Source of the DNA: Anaerolineales bacterium
GTDB lineage: Bacteria > Chloroflexota > Anaerolineae > Anaerolineales > RBG-16-64-43
DNA length: 33,759 nt
Direction: 5' to 3'
Assembly (NCBI GenBank): GCA_016932475.1
Contig: JAFGCU010000023.1
Span: 1 to 33,759, forward strand
Shown here piece after piece: positions 22,937 through 30,099 of this stretch (the stretch's first letter is position 1; each line of letters opens with the position of its first letter). A program made the translations under genes and the position numbers. Under the pieces are notes generated by a model. It saw only the letters and a list, made by a program, of their open reading frames with translations, was not told the origin of the DNA and did no database searches.

Positions 22937-23925
22937 GTGAGGTTGAAAAGGAGACTGCCCGTGCTGATCCTTCTTTTTTCGCTGCTATTCGTCTTGGGAG
23001 TGATCGTTTGCTGATTCGGCCCGGCGCCGCTTGCGGATCCGGGGACAGGGGGAATCAACGAATTGCGGCAGGTGAAATTGGGCGGGCGGTCCGGGAAGCG
23101 CCAATATCGCCAAGCTGAGGATTGAGTGCCCCGGCTTGGAAAAAGAATTCGTCGTGGTCGGCTGGGATCAGCGCGGATCGGGAAAAACCTACACTCTGCG
23201 GACGGGGGAAGGCGGCCTGACCCTGGATCAACTGCGTGAGGATGCCCGCCAATTGGTGACATACCTGCGGGGGCGATTCGGTGGAAAAAACCCACCGGAT
23301 GGGATTTTCCTGGGGGACGGCGCTGGGGTTGCGGACCGTGCGGGTTCATCCGGAGGATTTCCTCGGATACATCGGCGTAAGTCCGCTTGTGAATTATGCG
23401 GAGGGAAAAAGGTTGTCGCTGGAGCAAGTCCGGCGAATTGCGCGCGAAACGAACGATCGCAAAGCCGTGGAAGAATTGGCCGGCAACAATCCGGCCTGCC
23501 GGCCGGATTGTTGGCACGCCCAACTGATGCGGGAAAGAAGCTGGTTGCTGAAATTCGGCGGCGTATACCATACGGCCGACAACTACCGGCATGAGATGCG
23601 GATGCTGCTCGGCGCTTCCGAGTACTCGTTTCTGGATGTTGCCTGGCGGCCGATGGGGAGCGACCTGTCCCTTCGAACCTTGTGGCCGGAAATAATGCGG
23701 CTGGATTTTTTGGAAAGCGCGCCCCGGATCGACGTGCCGGTGGTTTTCCTTGCGGGGCGGTATGATTGCAATGCTCCGGCCGGGCTGACCCAGGCCTACT
23801 TCGATCGTCTTCAGGCGGCGTAGGGAAAACGGCTCATCGGGTTCGAAAAATCGGCGCACGATATCTTCTTCGATCAGCCGGATATGCTGATGGAAGAACT
23901 GATCCGGATGAAGCGGGGAGAATGA
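22937..23925 (+). pseudogene. Decayed alpha/beta hydrolase (proline iminopeptidase-like)
   Basis: The frame begins at GTG 22937 behind GGAGG with a signal-like segment (LPVLILLFSLLFVLG) but meets a stop at 23012. Homology then runs through three frames. INELRQVKLGG (frame of 22937) is followed by a gap where the HGGPG oxyanion loop is expected. Next come ANIAKLRIECPGLEKEF and GWDQRGSGKTY (second frame), then MGFSWGTALG (third frame, from about 23281) with the nucleophile Ser and the downstream body. A TAG at 23821 interrupts just before a tail with SAHDIFF, which would hold the catalytic His; the original stop is at 23923. At least two frame changes, one deletion and two stops make function unlikely. 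One shift is beside an A6 tract, where a sequencing error is possible. Confidence 0.85.
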
Positions 23926-24056: not shown

Positions 24057-24425
24057 ATGAAAAAACTTAGCCTGCTGCTCTTGCTGATCCTCGTCTCCTG
24101 CTCCGGCTCCTCGGACCCGGCGGCGGTTGTGGAGGAGTATTTCCGGGCCCTGGTGGAGAAAGACGCCACCAAAGCGGTGACCCTATCCTGCGCGGCCTGG
24201 GAAAGCGGCGCACGCACCGATGTCGATACCTTTGCCATGTATCCGGCGGAACTGCAGAATGTCGCCTGCCAGGATGCGGGGGCGGAAGGCGATGCCCGCC
24301 GCGTGAAGTGCACCGGCAAGGCCGTTCTCGATTACAACGGCGAAAAGCAGGAGATCGATCTCGCGGGCCGGGATTACACCGTCGTGCAGGAGGGCGGTGA
24401 ATGGCGGATGTGCGGCTATCGATGA
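24057..24425 (+). CDS. Small lipoprotein at the head of the acylation operon
   Basis: A 122-residue protein with a lipoprotein signal: MKKLSLLLLLILVSC, with the lipobox LVSC and lipidated Cys15. The mature part (AAVVEEYFRALVEKDATKAVTLS and following) has the alpha-beta layout of small DUF4878/NTF2-like extracytoplasmic domains, and carries three more cysteines that could form disulfides. ATG 24057 is the start that gives a complete signal; the ribosome binding site is a weak AAGAAGAGAG. Its TGA overlaps the ATG of the next micro-gene (ATGA), so the two are coupled. Its role in the operon is unknown; coupling suggests it works with the membrane acyltransferase. Confidence 0.8.
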   Translation: MKKLSLLLLLILVSCSGSSDPAAVVEEYFRALVEKDATKAVTLSCAAWESGARTDVDTFAMYPAELQNVACQDAGAEGDARRVKCTGKAVLDYNGEKQEIDLAGRDYTVVQEGGEWRMCGYR

Positions 24426-24556
24426 CGCCGGAAAAAATCCTCCGGGCGGTCCTTTCGCGGGAAAATCTCTGCGCCATCCTGGTGTGCGCGGCGCTGATCC
24501 TGTTCCTGATAGTCACGGCGGACCAGTCTCCGCAATGGATTTATCAGGGATTCTAA
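24422..24556 (+). CDS. DltX-like 44-residue membrane peptide ending WIYQGF
   Basis: A 44-residue frame that starts in the ATGA overlap with the lipoprotein gene and stops 31 bp before the MBOAT gene. It has a short polar basic N-terminus, one membrane span (about 17-33, CAILVCAALILFLIVTA) and the C-terminus PQWIYQGF. DltX of Gram-positive dlt operons is a small single-span protein next to the MBOAT DltB and ends in an FIYNEF-type motif whose Tyr is reported to take part in D-alanyl transfer. Size, single span, position beside an MBOAT and the [FW]-I-Y-x-x-F ending all match. This is pattern recognition, not an alignment result. If right, Tyr41 would be the acyl-accepting or substrate-mimicking residue on the outer face of the membrane. 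Confidence 0.68.
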   Translation: MTPEKILRAVLSRENLCAILVCAALILFLIVTADQSPQWIYQGF

Positions 24557-24587
24557 AAATCCGGCCGCGGCATCCCATCACCCCGTC

Positions 24588-26051
24588 ATGACCTTCTTCA
24601 ATATTCTTGTGTTTGCGGCGGTCTCCCTGGCGGCGGGCGCGCTCCCGCGCGCCCGCTCCTGGCTGCTGTGCATCGCCAGCGTGCTGGCCGTGTATTGGCT
24701 GCAGCCGGCCCTGCCGGTGCGCAATCTGGATTTCTGGCTCCCCACCGCGTCGATCACGCTGGCGGCGGCGGTGTGGATCGTCACCGCGCAGAAACGGGTC
24801 CCGGCCGGGGAAGCCGGCACGCCGGCGGGATCCGCCGGGAGCCGTCCAGCCCGCGAGGATTGGACCGCGCTGGCCGCCATTGGGCTGACGATCTCGGCAC
24901 TCGCGCTCACGCGGTATCTCGGCCCGGATCCCATCCTGACCCCCGCGCGTCCCCCGGAAATCGGCTGGGTGCTCTCCGGCCTGGTGATCGGAATGCTCAT
25001 CCTGGGCGGGTTGTGGATGCTTGCGCCCCGCCGTTGGCTGCCCGCTGCCGGAATTCTCGTCCTCCTCGCGCTGTTCGCCGCCATTAAAACGGACCCGTTC
25101 GCCCAGGCCGCGGCGGCGATGCTTCGCCGGCTCGCGGGGCAGTCCGCGCAGCTCGCCTCACCGCTGGATATCCGCTGGCTGGGATTTTCCTACCTCGCTT
25201 TCCGGCTGATCCACGCGCTCCGGGACCGGATGACGGGCAGGCTGCCGGATACCTCGCTGCGCGAGTTCATCACCTACGGGCTGTTCTTCCCGGCGGTGAC
25301 GGCCGGCCCAATCGACCGGCTGGAACGGTTTGTAAAGGACCTGCGCTCCAAACCGGGCGGGACGGCCGGGATGCTCACGCCGGGCGCGGAACGGGTCCTG
25401 GCCGGCGTATTCAAAAAATTCGTGCTGGCCGACGGATTGGCGATCCTCGCGCTCAACGCCGCGCTCGCGGCACGGGTCGCCGCCCCGCATTGGATGTGGT
25501 TCTTCCTGTACGCGTACGCCCTCCGGATTTATTTCGATTTTTCCGGATACACCGACATCGCGCTGGGGCTGGGGCGGTGGGCCGGGGTAACGCTCCCCGA
25601 AAATTTCAACCGCCCGTACCTGCAGCCGAACCTGACGGCGTTCTGGAATTCCTGGCACATCACGCTCGCGCAATGGTTCCGCTCCTACCTCTTCAATCCG
25701 CTGACCCGCGCGCTTCGGTCCGGCCCGAGGCCCTGGCCGATCGGGCTGGTCATCCTGGCGGGCCAGTTCGCGACGATGACGCTGATCGGGCTGTGGCACG
25801 GCGTCACCTGGAACTTTCTGATCTGGGGATGCTGGCACGGCTTCGGACTCTTCCTGCACAACCGGTGGGGCGAGCGGAGCCGCGCCTGGATGCCGCGCCT
25901 GGAAAAACGCCCGCTTCTGAAAAAAGCCTACACGGTGGCGTCCACGCTCGCGACCTTCCATTATGTCGTCCTCGGATGGGTGTGGTTCGCGCTGCCCACG
26001 GTCGAAAGTTCGTCGGCCGTCTTCCTGCGGCTGTTCGGCATTTCAAATTGA
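24588..26051 (+). CDS. MBOAT-family membrane O-acyltransferase (DltB/AlgI-like)
   Basis: A 487-residue multi-span membrane protein. Membrane-bound O-acyltransferases move an acyl group from a cytoplasmic donor to an acceptor at or beyond the membrane. Family motifs: PAVTAGPIDRLERF (235-248), YFDFSGYTDIALGLGR (315-330), FWNSWHITLAQWFRSYLF (352-369) and GLWHGVTWNFLIWGCWHG (401-418), in which His404 is the predicted catalytic His. The N-terminal 190 residues hold more predicted spans than DltB. No strong ribosome binding site precedes ATG 24588. Its neighbours (carrier protein, AMP ligase, SGNH proteins, DltX-like peptide) point to a Dlt-type pathway rather than alginate acetylation, where acetyl-CoA would suffice. 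Confidence 0.93.
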   Translation: MTFFNILVFAAVSLAAGALPRARSWLLCIASVLAVYWLQPALPVRNLDFWLPTASITLAAAVWIVTAQKRVPAGEAGTPAGSAGSRPAREDWTALAAIGLTISALALTRYLGPDPILTPARPPEIGWVLSGLVIGMLILGGLWMLAPRRWLPAAGILVLLALFAAIKTDPFAQAAAAMLRRLAGQSAQLASPLDIRWLGFSYLAFRLIHALRDRMTGRLPDTSLREFITYGLFFPAVTAGPIDRLERFVKDLRSKPGGTAGMLTPGAERVLAGVFKKFVLADGLAILALNAALAARVAAPHWMWFFLYAYALRIYFDFSGYTDIALGLGRWAGVTLPENFNRPYLQPNLTAFWNSWHITLAQWFRSYLFNPLTRALRSGPRPWPIGLVILAGQFATMTLIGLWHGVTWNFLIWGCWHGFGLFLHNRWGERSRAWMPRLEKRPLLKKAYTVASTLATFHYVVLGWVWFALPTVESSSAVFLRLFGISN

Positions 26052-26063
26052 CGGGGATGACGG

Positions 26064-27176
26064 GTGAGCATGACTGACCGAAGCCGGTTTTTCCGCAACG
26101 TCCTCATCAAAGCGCTGATCCTGTTCGCCGCGGTCAACGGCGTGTTCGCGGCGGTGGACCTCATGCCCGCGCTCGGGCGCGTTTCCATTTACAACACGCT
26201 GATCCCGGGCCGGGTCCGGCTGCCCTACGGCGAAGACGCGCAGGCGGATTACAACCTCAGCCTGTTCAGCCTGGAGGCGATGTTCGCCTCGCATGAAGCC
26301 GCCGCCCGGCCGGAACCCGGACCGCTGCGCGTGATGCTGATCGGGGATTCCGCCACCTGGGGTTTCCTGCTCCAGCCGCAAGAGACGCTGGCCTCGATCC
26401 TCAACCGGAATTCCGGGGGCGCCGTCCGAACCTACAACTTCGGGTATCCGACGATGACGGTCACCAAGGACCTGCTGATGCTTTCGCATGCGGTGCAGTA
26501 CGAACCGGATCTGATCATCTGGCTCGTCACGCTCGAATCCATGCCGCAAGCCAAACAGCTGGATTCGCCGATCCTGCAGAACAACGCCGACGCGGTTCGC
26601 GCGCTGATCGCCGGGTACCGCCTGCACTCGGATCCGCAGGACCCGCGGTTGAAATCTCCGACGTTTTGGAATCGGACGATGGTCGGCGGACGAAGGGCGC
26701 TCGCGGACCTGATCCGCCTGCAGATGTACGGCTTCCTGTGGGCGGCGACCGGGGTGGACCAGGCCATTCCGGCGGAGTATGATCCGCCGCAATCGGACCT
26801 CGAGGCGGACGAGGGTTTTCACGGGCTTCTTCCGCCCGTATTACTGGAAGAGGATCTTGCCTTCGACGTGCTTTCCGCCGGGCGGGAAATGGCGGGGGAT
26901 ATTCCGGTGTGGATCGTCAATGAACCGGTCTTCCTCAGCAGCGGTTTGAACAGCGCCATTCGATATAATTTTTTCTACCCGCGCTGGGCCTACGATCAAT
27001 ACCGTTCCATGCTGGCGGATTGGTGCCGCCGGCAGGCGGTCGTGTGCCATGATTTCTGGGATCTGGTTCCGGCGGAAGAGTTTTCCAACAGCGCGATCCA
27101 CCGGACCCCGCGCGGAGAAGCCATGCTGGCGGACGCATTGGGGGCGTTGATCGCGGAGGAATGCCATGGGCGGTAA
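26064..27176 (+). CDS. Membrane-anchored SGNH hydrolase-like protein (DltD/AlgJ-like role)
   Basis: A 370-residue protein with an N-terminal membrane anchor (about 13-31) and an extracytoplasmic SGNH-type domain. Block I is LIGDSATWG (92-100, nucleophile Ser96); block II is NFGYPTMT (125-132); block V is IHRTPRGEAML (345-355, His346). The usual DxxH of block V reads SxxH here, so the Asp of the triad is missing at its normal place. In dlt and alginate systems proteins of this fold transfer or remove acyl groups at the surface. Start: GTG 26064 with GGGGA six bases before; ATG 26070 is equally possible. It overlaps the next gene by 11 bp. Confidence 0.87.
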   Translation: MSMTDRSRFFRNVLIKALILFAAVNGVFAAVDLMPALGRVSIYNTLIPGRVRLPYGEDAQADYNLSLFSLEAMFASHEAAARPEPGPLRVMLIGDSATWGFLLQPQETLASILNRNSGGAVRTYNFGYPTMTVTKDLLMLSHAVQYEPDLIIWLVTLESMPQAKQLDSPILQNNADAVRALIAGYRLHSDPQDPRLKSPTFWNRTMVGGRRALADLIRLQMYGFLWAATGVDQAIPAEYDPPQSDLEADEGFHGLLPPVLLEEDLAFDVLSAGREMAGDIPVWIVNEPVFLSSGLNSAIRYNFFYPRWAYDQYRSMLADWCRRQAVVCHDFWDLVPAEEFSNSAIHRTPRGEAMLADALGALIAEECHGR

Positions 27177-28155
27177 TCGAAAATCCGGGATGCTGGCCGG
27201 CGCAAGCCTGGCGTTGCTGCTTTGCGCATGCGGCGACGCGGCCACCCCCGAGGCAACCGGCCTCCCGGAGACCCCCGCGGTTGTACTGAGCACCGGCGGC
27301 ACCTTCGCTCCGACCGGACAGGCAGCCACCGATCCGGTGGAAACTCCCAGCGCCGGGCCGCGCCCGACACCCGGCGCGGAGGATTGGATGACGCTGCCGG
27401 TGGTTCCGGCCTTCGGCGGCCGGGCCGCGGAAATCTTCCAGAAAGGGATATCCATGGGGCGGGATTTTCACGCTTTCTCCAAGATCGGCGACTGCCAGAA
27501 CATCACCACCTACTTCCTGGCGGATTTCGATCAGCAGGATAAATACCGTCTGGGGGAATACGCCGACCTTCAGGTAACAATCGACTGGTTTCGGGGATAC
27601 TTCGGCCGCAAAAGCCTGGCGGTCCGGGGAGGCCTGAACGTGGCGTCGGTCATGAATCCGCTGATGGCCGATCGGGAATCCTGCTTGTCGGGCGAAAGCC
27701 CGCTGGTATGCGAACTGCGGGCCAACAACCCCAGCCTGGCGCTGATCAGCTTCGAGGAAGCCTGGGACGGAGACGTGGAAAAATACGAAACCTACCTGCG
27801 CCGGGTGATCGAGTACGTGATCGCGCAGGATGTGGTCCCGGTGGTGGCGACCAAGGCGGATAATCTGGAGGGCGGGCACCGGATCAACGCGCTTGTCGCC
27901 CGGCTGGCCTGGGAATACGGCATCCCGCTGTGGAATTTTTGGGCGGCCGTCCAGCCCTTGCGTTCCCACGGGCTGACCGAGGACGGCTTTCACCTCACCC
28001 AGACCGCCGATTATCACAATTTCTATTTCGATCTGCGCCGTTCCCGTTGGAGCGGGTGGATGGCGCGCAACCTATCCGCGCTGCAGGTGCTGGACGCCGC
28101 GCGGGAGGAACTGATCGCCCCGGCGGTCACCGGACAGAGGAGCAACCATGAGTGA
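27166..28155 (+). CDS. SGNH/GDSL-type lipoprotein with Cys in place of the nucleophile Ser
   Basis: A 329-residue protein. A lipoprotein signal (GASLALLLCAC, predicted lipidated Cys22) is followed by a Thr/Pro-rich linker (about 27-70) typical of surface lipoproteins, then a globular domain. Block I reads SKIGDCQN (106-112): GDC replaces GDS, so Cys110 sits at the nucleophile position. Block V reads DGFHLT (273-278) with Asp273 and His276 both present. The expected GxND block is not recognisable (ISFEEAW at 194-200). I recall this as a lipoprotein family of Chloroflexota genomes, which I cannot verify here. ATG 27166 follows GGAGGA by five bases. The Cys could act as nucleophile or form a disulfide. 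Confidence 0.82.
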   Translation: MGGNRKSGMLAGASLALLLCACGDAATPEATGLPETPAVVLSTGGTFAPTGQAATDPVETPSAGPRPTPGAEDWMTLPVVPAFGGRAAEIFQKGISMGRDFHAFSKIGDCQNITTYFLADFDQQDKYRLGEYADLQVTIDWFRGYFGRKSLAVRGGLNVASVMNPLMADRESCLSGESPLVCELRANNPSLALISFEEAWDGDVEKYETYLRRVIEYVIAQDVVPVVATKADNLEGGHRINALVARLAWEYGIPLWNFWAAVQPLRSHGLTEDGFHLTQTADYHNFYFDLRRSRWSGWMARNLSALQVLDAAREELIAPAVTGQRSNHE

Positions 28156-28393
28156 TGATATCGAAGCCAAGGTTTCAGAATACATCGCCGGCACAATTCT
28201 CAAACAGCCGGATCGGGCGATCGACCCGCAGGAGAAACTGATCTCGTCGGGCCTGATCGATTCCTTCCATTTGGTGGACCTTTCCCTGTACGTCGAGGAT
28301 ACATTCGGGGTCCATCTGGACGACACGGAGCTGAACGCGGAGAGTTTCGACACGCTCGCGGCGCTGGCGGCGATCATCCGGTCCCGGCAGTGA
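28148..28393 (+). CDS. Acyl carrier protein (DltC-like)
   Basis: An 81-residue acidic four-helix carrier protein. The phosphopantetheine attachment site is Ser39 in SSGLIDSFHLVDL. It starts at an ATG within the 3' end of the SGNH lipoprotein gene (8-bp overlap) with GAGGAG five bases upstream, and its TGA overlaps the GTG of the ligase. It would hold the acyl group activated by the ligase and present it to the MBOAT. It is a dedicated carrier rather than the fatty-acid synthesis ACP, judged by its operon position. Confidence 0.93.
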   Translation: MSDDIEAKVSEYIAGTILKQPDRAIDPQEKLISSGLIDSFHLVDLSLYVEDTFGVHLDDTELNAESFDTLAALAAIIRSRQ

Positions 28394-30099
28394 CCCCCGT
28401 GACCACCTTCTTTTCCCGCCTTCAGCATTTGTACGAAACGGATCCGGAGCGGACGGCCATCATCTGGATGCACGCGCGGGAGCCCGAGCATCCGATGACG
28501 CGCCGCGACCTCATCCGCCAGGCGGCGGGGTATGCCGCCGCGCTCGCGGCGGCGGGAGTGAGGCCGGGGGAGGTGGTGATCCTCATCTTGCAGCATTCCG
28601 AATCGCTGGCGGCCGCCTTTTTCGGCGCCGTGCTGCATGGGGCGATACCGAGCATCATGCCGTTCCTGACCGAAAAACTTGCGCCGGATTCCTACCGGCG
28701 TTCGCTGAAATCGCTGTTCGAGGTGACGCATCCGGCGGCGGTCGTCACGTATCCGGAATTTGCCGCGGAATTGCAGGATGCCATCCCCGCCGGCGGTTCC
28801 GTCCGCAGCGTGCTTCTGTCTTCGGAAGTTGCGCCGGTGCCGGAGCCGGATTTTCCCGCGCTGCGCGGGTCGGAACGGCTGCCCGGGGATGTCGTCCTCC
28901 TGCAGCATTCCTCCGGCACGACCGGCCTGCAGAAGGGCGTTGCGCTTTCGCACGAGGCCGTCTTCCGCCAGCTGGCGAGCTACGGCAAGGCTATCCGCCT
29001 CGCGCCGGACGATGTGGTCGTCTCCTGGCTGCCCCTTTACCACGACATGGGGCTGATCGCCGGATTCCTGATGCCGCTCCTCTCGGGAATTCCGCTGGTG
29101 CTCATGTCGCCCTTCGATTGGGTCCGCGCGCCATACAAACTCATGCAGGCGGTTTCGCAGCATCGCGGGACTCTTACCTGGCTGCCAAACTTCGCCTTTA
29201 ACTTCTGCGCCCAAAAAATCCGCGACCGGAATCTGGAAGGGGTGGATCTCGCTTCGTGGCGGGCGGTGATCAACTGCTCCGAACCGATGCATTACCAGAG
29301 TCACCGGTTGTTCTACGAACGGTTCCGCGCCCACGGGCTGCGCGAATCGGCGCTGGCGACCAGTTACGCGATGGCCGAGAATGTGTTCGCCGTCACCCAG
29401 GGCGGGATCGACCGGGCGGTCACGGTCGATACGATCAGCCAGCGCGGATTGCTCATCGACCGGGTTGCGCGCGCGGCGGCGGACGGCGAGGAGACGATGC
29501 GGATGCTCTCCTGCGGCGCCCCGCTCCCGAACGTCGAAGTCCGGGTGGTCGACGACGCGCGCGGGGATCTCCCCGAACGGCATCTGGGCGAGGTCATGCT
29601 TCGCAGCGACTGCATGCTCACAGGATATTACCGGCGCGACGACCTGACCGAAAAAGCATTCCACAACGGCTGGTACCTCACCGGCGACCTCGGATACATG
29701 GCGGACGGAGAGGTGTACATCACCGGCCGCAAGAAGGACCTCATCATCGTCGGCGGGAAGAATGTGTATCCGCAGGACCTCGAAAGCCTGGCCTCGGAAG
29801 TGCCTGGAATTCATCCCGGGCGGGTGGTCGCCTTCGGCGTCTACAACGAGGAAATGGGAACCGAGGAAGTGGTGATCGTCGCCGAGAAGGACGCCGAGGC
29901 GGAGTATCCCGCCGGCGCCGGCCCCGAAGCCCTATCCAACGAGATCCGCGCGCGGGTCACCCGCGGGTCCGACATCGCGCTGCGGCAGGTCGCGGTGGTC
30001 GAGCGCGGATGGCTGCTCAAGACGAGTTCGGGCAAAATCGCGCGGAGCGCCAACCGAGACAAATTCCTCGCCGGGAAAGCGGTGACGGCGGGGGGATAG
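28390..30099 (+). CDS. AMP-forming acyl ligase (fatty-acyl-AMP ligase/DltA-like role)
   Basis: A 569-residue ANL-superfamily enzyme. Motifs: the P-loop LQHSSGTTGLQKGV (171-184), LPLYHDMGLIAGF (214-226) and TSYAMAEN (324-331). Further on are WYLTGDLGYM (428-437), GRKKDLIIVGGKNVYPQDLE (446-465) and the C-terminal lysine in KTSSGKI (Lys549). The overall style is closer to fatty-acyl-AMP ligases that load carrier proteins than to DltA. The GTG start overlaps the carrier-protein stop (GTGA), and this strict coupling suggests equimolar synthesis. It is expected to activate a carboxylic acid with ATP and load it on the adjacent carrier. Whether the acid is D-alanine, acetate or a longer acid is not evident. 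It is the last gene of the operon. Confidence 0.92.
   Translation: MTPVTTFFSRLQHLYETDPERTAIIWMHAREPEHPMTRRDLIRQAAGYAAALAAAGVRPGEVVILILQHSESLAAAFFGAVLHGAIPSIMPFLTEKLAPDSYRRSLKSLFEVTHPAAVVTYPEFAAELQDAIPAGGSVRSVLLSSEVAPVPEPDFPALRGSERLPGDVVLLQHSSGTTGLQKGVALSHEAVFRQLASYGKAIRLAPDDVVVSWLPLYHDMGLIAGFLMPLLSGIPLVLMSPFDWVRAPYKLMQAVSQHRGTLTWLPNFAFNFCAQKIRDRNLEGVDLASWRAVINCSEPMHYQSHRLFYERFRAHGLRESALATSYAMAENVFAVTQGGIDRAVTVDTISQRGLLIDRVARAAADGEETMRMLSCGAPLPNVEVRVVDDARGDLPERHLGEVMLRSDCMLTGYYRRDDLTEKAFHNGWYLTGDLGYMADGEVYITGRKKDLIIVGGKNVYPQDLESLASEVPGIHPGRVVAFGVYNEEMGTEEVVIVAEKDAEAEYPAGAGPEALSNEIRARVTRGSDIALRQVAVVERGWLLKTSSGKIARSANRDKFLAGKAVTAGG

Follow-up and report, generated by a model that had tools for sequence, protein, structure and literature searches.

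A Dlt-like operon of Anaerolineae and its predicted carrier-dependent acylation of the cell surface

Gram-positive bacteria decorate their surface with D-alanine by means of the Dlt machine. A seven-gene operon of an Anaerolineales bacterium contains a set of parts of the same design, which raises the question of what such a machine might transfer, and onto what, in this lineage. The operon lies at positions 24057-30099 on the plus strand of the window, the whole stretch of DNA that was analyzed (33,759 nucleotides; positions 1-33,759 of contig JAFGCU010000023.1), and its genes are named L, X, B, D1, D2, C and A in the order in which they occur. We consider it probable that they encode a carrier-dependent transmembrane O-acylation machine, in which a fatty or related acyl group would be relayed from the ligase A to the carrier C, the membrane-bound O-acyltransferase (MBOAT) B, a tyrosine of the microprotein X and a serine of the SGNH protein D1, and from there onto a surface glycan.

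Gene content and conservation of the operon

The original prediction, made from the sequence alone, described six genes and one micro-gene in a Dlt-like order X-B-D-D'-C-A, and all of them were found in place. Neighboring genes overlap or are separated by 12-31 bases. A Pfam/NCBIfam scan of the window proteins matched MBOAT in B (72.7 bits), PP-binding in C (29.7 bits) and AMP-binding in A (180.7 bits), and a GDSL-like domain was matched in both D1 and D2, each below the cut-off. In the fetched Anaerolineae loci the gene order was mostly L-X-B-D1-D2-C-A or subsets of it. Among 55 distinct X loci, including contigs that end early, the pair X-B was seen in 48, B-D1 in 41 and C-A in 25, each with the second gene directly behind the first, and L adjoined X in 32. 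The predicted Dlt-like logic and order were thus supported by the gene order in relatives and by the family matches, and the synteny check proposed at the time showed genes that stay together.

Of 396 Anaerolineae genomes, 95 contained X, 98 contained A and 94 contained D1; X and A occurred together in 88 genomes, where 23.5 were expected, X and D1 in 89, and all three in 84 of the 107 genomes with at least one of these genes. The numbers take no account of shared ancestry, and the p-values were set aside for that reason. X was found in 26 genomes from a sample of 301 Chloroflexota, every one of them a member of the same class. In the one close-relative search that reached beyond Chloroflexota, the closest named relatives of B were Anaerolineae and other Chloroflexota records, and the close relative loci were Anaerolineae records, which bore out the Chloroflexota lineage proposed for this DNA. 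The contig of one locus (L031, Anaerolineae bacterium fen_1073) apparently also forms part of G003, a genome of the window's own family. As the gene set recurs in Anaerolineae, the motif of X is kept through synonymous changes and X, A and D1 occur together much more often than expected, the operon is a conserved system and not a chance assembly.

Components of the predicted relay

The most likely start of X is the ATG at 24422, where ATGA overlaps the stop codon of L, giving a protein of 44 aa (51 aa from 24401) whose single hydrophobic segment spans residues 15-33 and which ends in WIYQGF. This hexapeptide was near invariant across the 55 loci, with F in first place in two of them and V, A or N elsewhere in single loci. 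Its codons differed synonymously at third positions among loci while the peptide was constant, which indicates that the protein and not the DNA is under conservation. X did not match Pfam DltX, and a sequence search of solved structures with X gave nothing useful; judged by its sequence, X would be a functional analogue of DltX only. A 661-aa frame in genome G558 that resembled an A-X fusion was rejected, as X is read there in a different frame from A and lies downstream of it.

The MBOATs of the operon stop shortly after a conserved G-W-V-W-F stretch and carry no tyrosine motif, and paralogous MBOATs of the same and related genomes terminate in F-x-Y-x-x-F. Split (DltB/DltX) and fused (PatA, AlgI) shuttle motifs have been distinguished (PMC12148441), and X is predicted to provide the motif that B is without. 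In the window's own genome a fused-motif MBOAT ending in FLYGNF was found beside an AlgX-like SGNH gene (contig C23, L072:9370-12017), so that both kinds of system are present there. B itself gave a profile match to solved DltB (2.2e-64) and 210 bits to the DltB model TIGR04091, under the equivalog cut-off of 375. Its residues H357 and H404 were invariant and aligned with H289 and H336 of DltB (structure 6bug), which have been named as key residues (PMC11035591), and B is a DltB-type MBOAT in this respect.

A aligned in a single continuous stretch with EcFAAL (3pbk) and other fatty acyl-AMP ligases (FAALs; 6e-67), and with coenzyme A (CoA) ligases such as 4CL in split stretches only. The homology to FAALs, seen in these alignments, runs along the whole of A and reached 346 bits against FAAL family models (PRK09192). 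The DltA model TIGR01734 gave 31.5 bits over 106 positions, far under its cut-off of 559.85. By its sequence, A is therefore not a DltA; its FAAL family suggests a fatty or related acid as the substrate, and D-alanine is unlikely. The original prediction that the ligase is more FAAL than DltA held. FAALs load holo acyl carrier protein (ACP) and not CoA (PMC8460268). C is a carrier by its PP-binding match and its invariant DS, and it scored under the DltC equivalog cut-off.

To follow the ligase and carrier outside the operon, several genomes having A but no X were inspected. Locus L140 contained C and A downstream of two MBOATs ending in FVYQGF and FVYQSF, and L143 contained A followed by an MBOAT ending in FIYFEF. 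In L141 a frame cut by the contig edge and ending in FVYLGF lay just upstream of C, and in L142 and L144 C and A were present and no MBOAT was recognized. The ligase and carrier thus group with MBOATs even where X is missing, and not with an unrelated pathway, the outcome that had been named as fatal to the original prediction. L140 and L141 contained glycosyltransferase and PMT_2 genes, and L140 additionally a polysaccharide deacetylase gene. A third arrangement in the same class (L077:9313-15222, genome G029) consisted of an MBOAT with a fused FMYVEF, two GDS/GSS-motif proteins, one of them weakly DHHW, an enzyme resembling acetate-CoA ligase and a carrier-like gene of 78 aa without a family match.

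The AlphaFold model of D1 (pLDDT 93.5) showed an N-terminal helix followed by an SGNH domain. D1 had no match to the DltD sequence family (PF04914/TIGR04092) at E<=1, and a sequence search of solved structures gave nothing useful, so that a fold comparison was needed; this matched DltD structures with Z 14.1-14.4 over 271-280 residues. The GDS and a late His of D1 were invariant in relatives. In L121:12112-13548 (genome G554) a second D1 and, directly behind it, an ACP share a single open frame, through a fusion or a lost stop; this is odd for the topology. On a plasmid of Leptolinea sp. HRD-7 (AP024711.1) a D1-like gene annotated as hypothetical (L135:7911-9020; 49% identity) stands alone, and the other operon genes were not found nearby.

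D2 has an SGNH-like fold by its model, and its motif is GDC, with Cys at the position of the SGNH nucleophile, in 24/24 aligned copies. Nearby paralogues of D2, mostly on the opposite strand, have GDS instead and keep the other two cysteines, and the His was missing from some D2 copies. Two SGNH-type proteins had been predicted; D1 fits this description by its GDS and DltD-like fold, and D2, with Cys in place of the catalytic Ser, does so by its fold only. The 55 X loci held from none to four copies of D2, and in four loci (L042, L044, L045 and L046) the L domain forms the front of D2. This fusion and the variable number of D2 make a joint role of L and D2 outside the cell probable. The features of the operon are collected in Table 1. 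Upstream of it, at 23136-23823 of the window, two overlapping frames look like one broken alpha/beta-hydrolase-type gene with a weak Hydrolase_4 match.

Table 1. Coordinates of the operon genes in the window
Gene	Feature	Position	Strand	Remark
L	small conserved lipoprotein (lipobox LVSC), putative accessory	24057..24425	+	no family above cut-off in Pfam/NCBIfam
X	DltX-like one-transmembrane microprotein, C-terminal WIYQGF	24422..24556	+	44 aa; longer frame from 24401
B	DltB-like MBOAT without C-terminal shuttle motif	24588..26051	+	His357/His404 = DltB His289/His336
D1	membrane-anchored SGNH protein, DltD-like fold	26064..27176	+	GDS and His invariant
D2	SGNH-like lipoprotein, invariant GDC and second conserved Cys pair	27166..28155	+	0-4 copies in relatives
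C	acyl carrier protein	28148..28393	+	phosphopantetheine site GLIDS
A	fatty acyl-AMP ligase-type (FAAL) adenylating enzyme	28390..30099	+	GTGA overlap with C

Proposed mechanism and alternative explanations

From these components we infer the following relay. A would activate a carboxylic acid as its adenylate and load the acyl group on the phosphopantetheine of C; the acid is most likely not an amino acid but a fatty acid or one related to it. B would receive the acyl group from C and use its conserved His pair to pass it to the tyrosine within the C-terminal WIYQGF of X, which is expected to be extracytoplasmic. X would then give the acyl group to the catalytic Ser of the membrane-anchored D1, and D1 would esterify an envelope glycan, with the lipoproteins L and D2 as accessory parts on or near the acceptor outside the cell.

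The gene neighborhoods of L140 and L141 are the sole evidence on the acceptor, and their glycosyltransferase and PMT_2 genes point to a glycan. The teichoic acid polymerase PF04464 was not found in the window's own genome, and three LytR-CpsA-Psr (LCP) genes were, which makes an LCP-attached or other glycan a fair guess for the acceptor. The original prediction had also called the lineage one not known for teichoic acids. The missing PF04464 would fit that description, which is nevertheless disputed by a genome announcement that reported teichoic acid genes in one Chloroflexi isolate (PMC8793728). A more far-reaching proposal, which we advance tentatively and hold to be possible but not probable, is that the operon represents the Dlt design taken into use independently for a second time, in which the acyl group of a fatty acid, or of some other acid that is not an amino acid, would pass via the microprotein tyrosine to an Anaerolineae surface glycan and the Cys-based D2 would extend the relay to the final acceptor.

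Several observations weigh against the relay as proposed. In some genomes (G051, G018) the ligase and carrier genes lie apart from X and B, and the operon of genome G041 (L070) has X, B, D1, D2 and C with no A beside them; no strong A was found in the G041 genome, so here either the carrier has to receive its load from another source or the system is decaying. The best single family model for A was PRK07768 (348 bits), which is named a CoA ligase, just ahead of PRK09192, and the acid used by a FAAL is not predictable from its sequence. Esterases and thioesterases gave Z values close to those of DltD in the comparison with D1, over shorter alignments (about 170 residues for small thioesterases), so that by its fold alone D1 could also be a hydrolase. 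The DltB route serves D-alanine. Finally, the operon flanks contained no recurrent acceptor-synthesis genes; the clusters found there were dominated by shadow open reading frames, and the real neighbors were varied.

The operon could instead be a true Dlt pathway with diverged parts that D-alanylates teichoic acid. The list of parts is the same, B scores against the DltB model and D1 matches DltD folds, and the Chloroflexi have been described as monoderm, with the isolate mentioned above as a reported carrier of teichoic acid genes. What makes this highly improbable is the ligase, which matches DltA weakly over a short part and FAAL models strongly, together with a B below the DltB equivalog cut-off, a D1 outside the DltD family and a genome without PF04464. 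If D-alanine is set aside, the same relay might still carry a short, hydroxy, branched or aromatic acid in place of an ordinary long fatty acid. Membership of the FAALs does not fix the chain length, and in the cousin L077 a fused-motif MBOAT stands together with an acetate-CoA-ligase-like enzyme and a gene resembling a carrier, but the closest families of A are long-chain FAALs; we regard such an acid as rather unlikely, though a serious candidate.

Another explanation is that the ligase and carrier belong to lipid or polyketide synthesis and merely adjoin an MBOAT-SGNH pair that uses acetyl-CoA. FAALs usually serve polyketide synthases (PKS), non-ribosomal peptide synthetases (NRPS) and mycobacterial lipids (PMC11837247), and the genomes in which C and A are unlinked would fit. 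The joint occurrence of A and X in 88 genomes, the association of A and C with MBOATs where X is missing and an operon without PKS render it improbable. X, being small, near invariant and next to B, could also be the product itself, an acyl-peptide made by B and not a shuttle. This is scarcely credible, since paralogous MBOATs carry the motif of X as a fused shuttle, in which form it cannot be set free as a peptide, and 89 of the 95 genomes with X also have a DltD-like D1.

Comparison with known acyl transfer systems

The proposed relay most resembles DltXABCD. Common to both are a ligase, a carrier, an MBOAT with the same two His, a membrane-anchored SGNH protein with a DltD-like fold and a separate one-transmembrane microprotein ending in aromatic-x-Y-x-x-F (WIYQGF; FIYQGF in two relatives). 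However, the operon ligase is FAAL-type, X has no Pfam DltX match and mostly Trp as the first motif residue, D1 falls outside the DltD sequence family, L and D2 are extra lipoproteins and no teichoic acid polymerase was found. Because both its ligase and its D1 fall outside the DltA and DltD families, the operon is not Dlt proper. It has the MBOAT, the SGNH protein and the terminal aromatic-x-Y-x-x-F that define the MBOAT-SGNH tyrosine-shuttle systems, and we file it, on its sequence features, as a putative variant of these.

PatA/PatB, AlgI/AlgJ/AlgX and other fused-motif systems likewise combine an MBOAT-SGNH pair with a C-terminal acyl-Tyr shuttle, and alginate acetylation, like the operon, involves more than one SGNH protein. 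Their acyl donor is acetyl-CoA and their motif is part of the MBOAT itself (PMC12148441), whereas in the operon the motif is on a separate peptide and the acyl group would be supplied by a ligase-carrier pair. The FAAL-ACP pairs of PKS/NRPS and mycobacterial lipid pathways (EcFAAL 3pbk, FadD32) have the ligase family and the free-standing carrier in common with the operon, where the pair is instead tied to a membrane transfer machine and not to a synthase. Closest in content are L140 and L143, which have the ligase and carrier families in common with the operon and for which the same motif chemistry is expected, but with the motif fused to the MBOAT; in L140 a glycosyltransferase cluster accompanies the two MBOATs and two GDS/GSS-motif proteins. 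Such cousins, which combine a fused motif with this kind of ligase and carrier, may serve as a natural experiment on the splitting or joining of shuttle peptide and MBOAT.

A search of the literature that was available found no paper joining an MBOAT with a fatty acyl-AMP ligase, nor one joining MBOAT, SGNH and ACP. MBOAT-SGNH pathways other than Dlt have been said to have neither a carrier protein nor a DltX-like microprotein (PMC12148441). The operon has both, together with a fatty-acid-type ligase, in a phylum of poorly known envelope chemistry. It suggests that the Dlt architecture is a general route for exporting carrier-bound acyl groups, and it predicts a lipid-like ester decoration of Anaerolineae surfaces.

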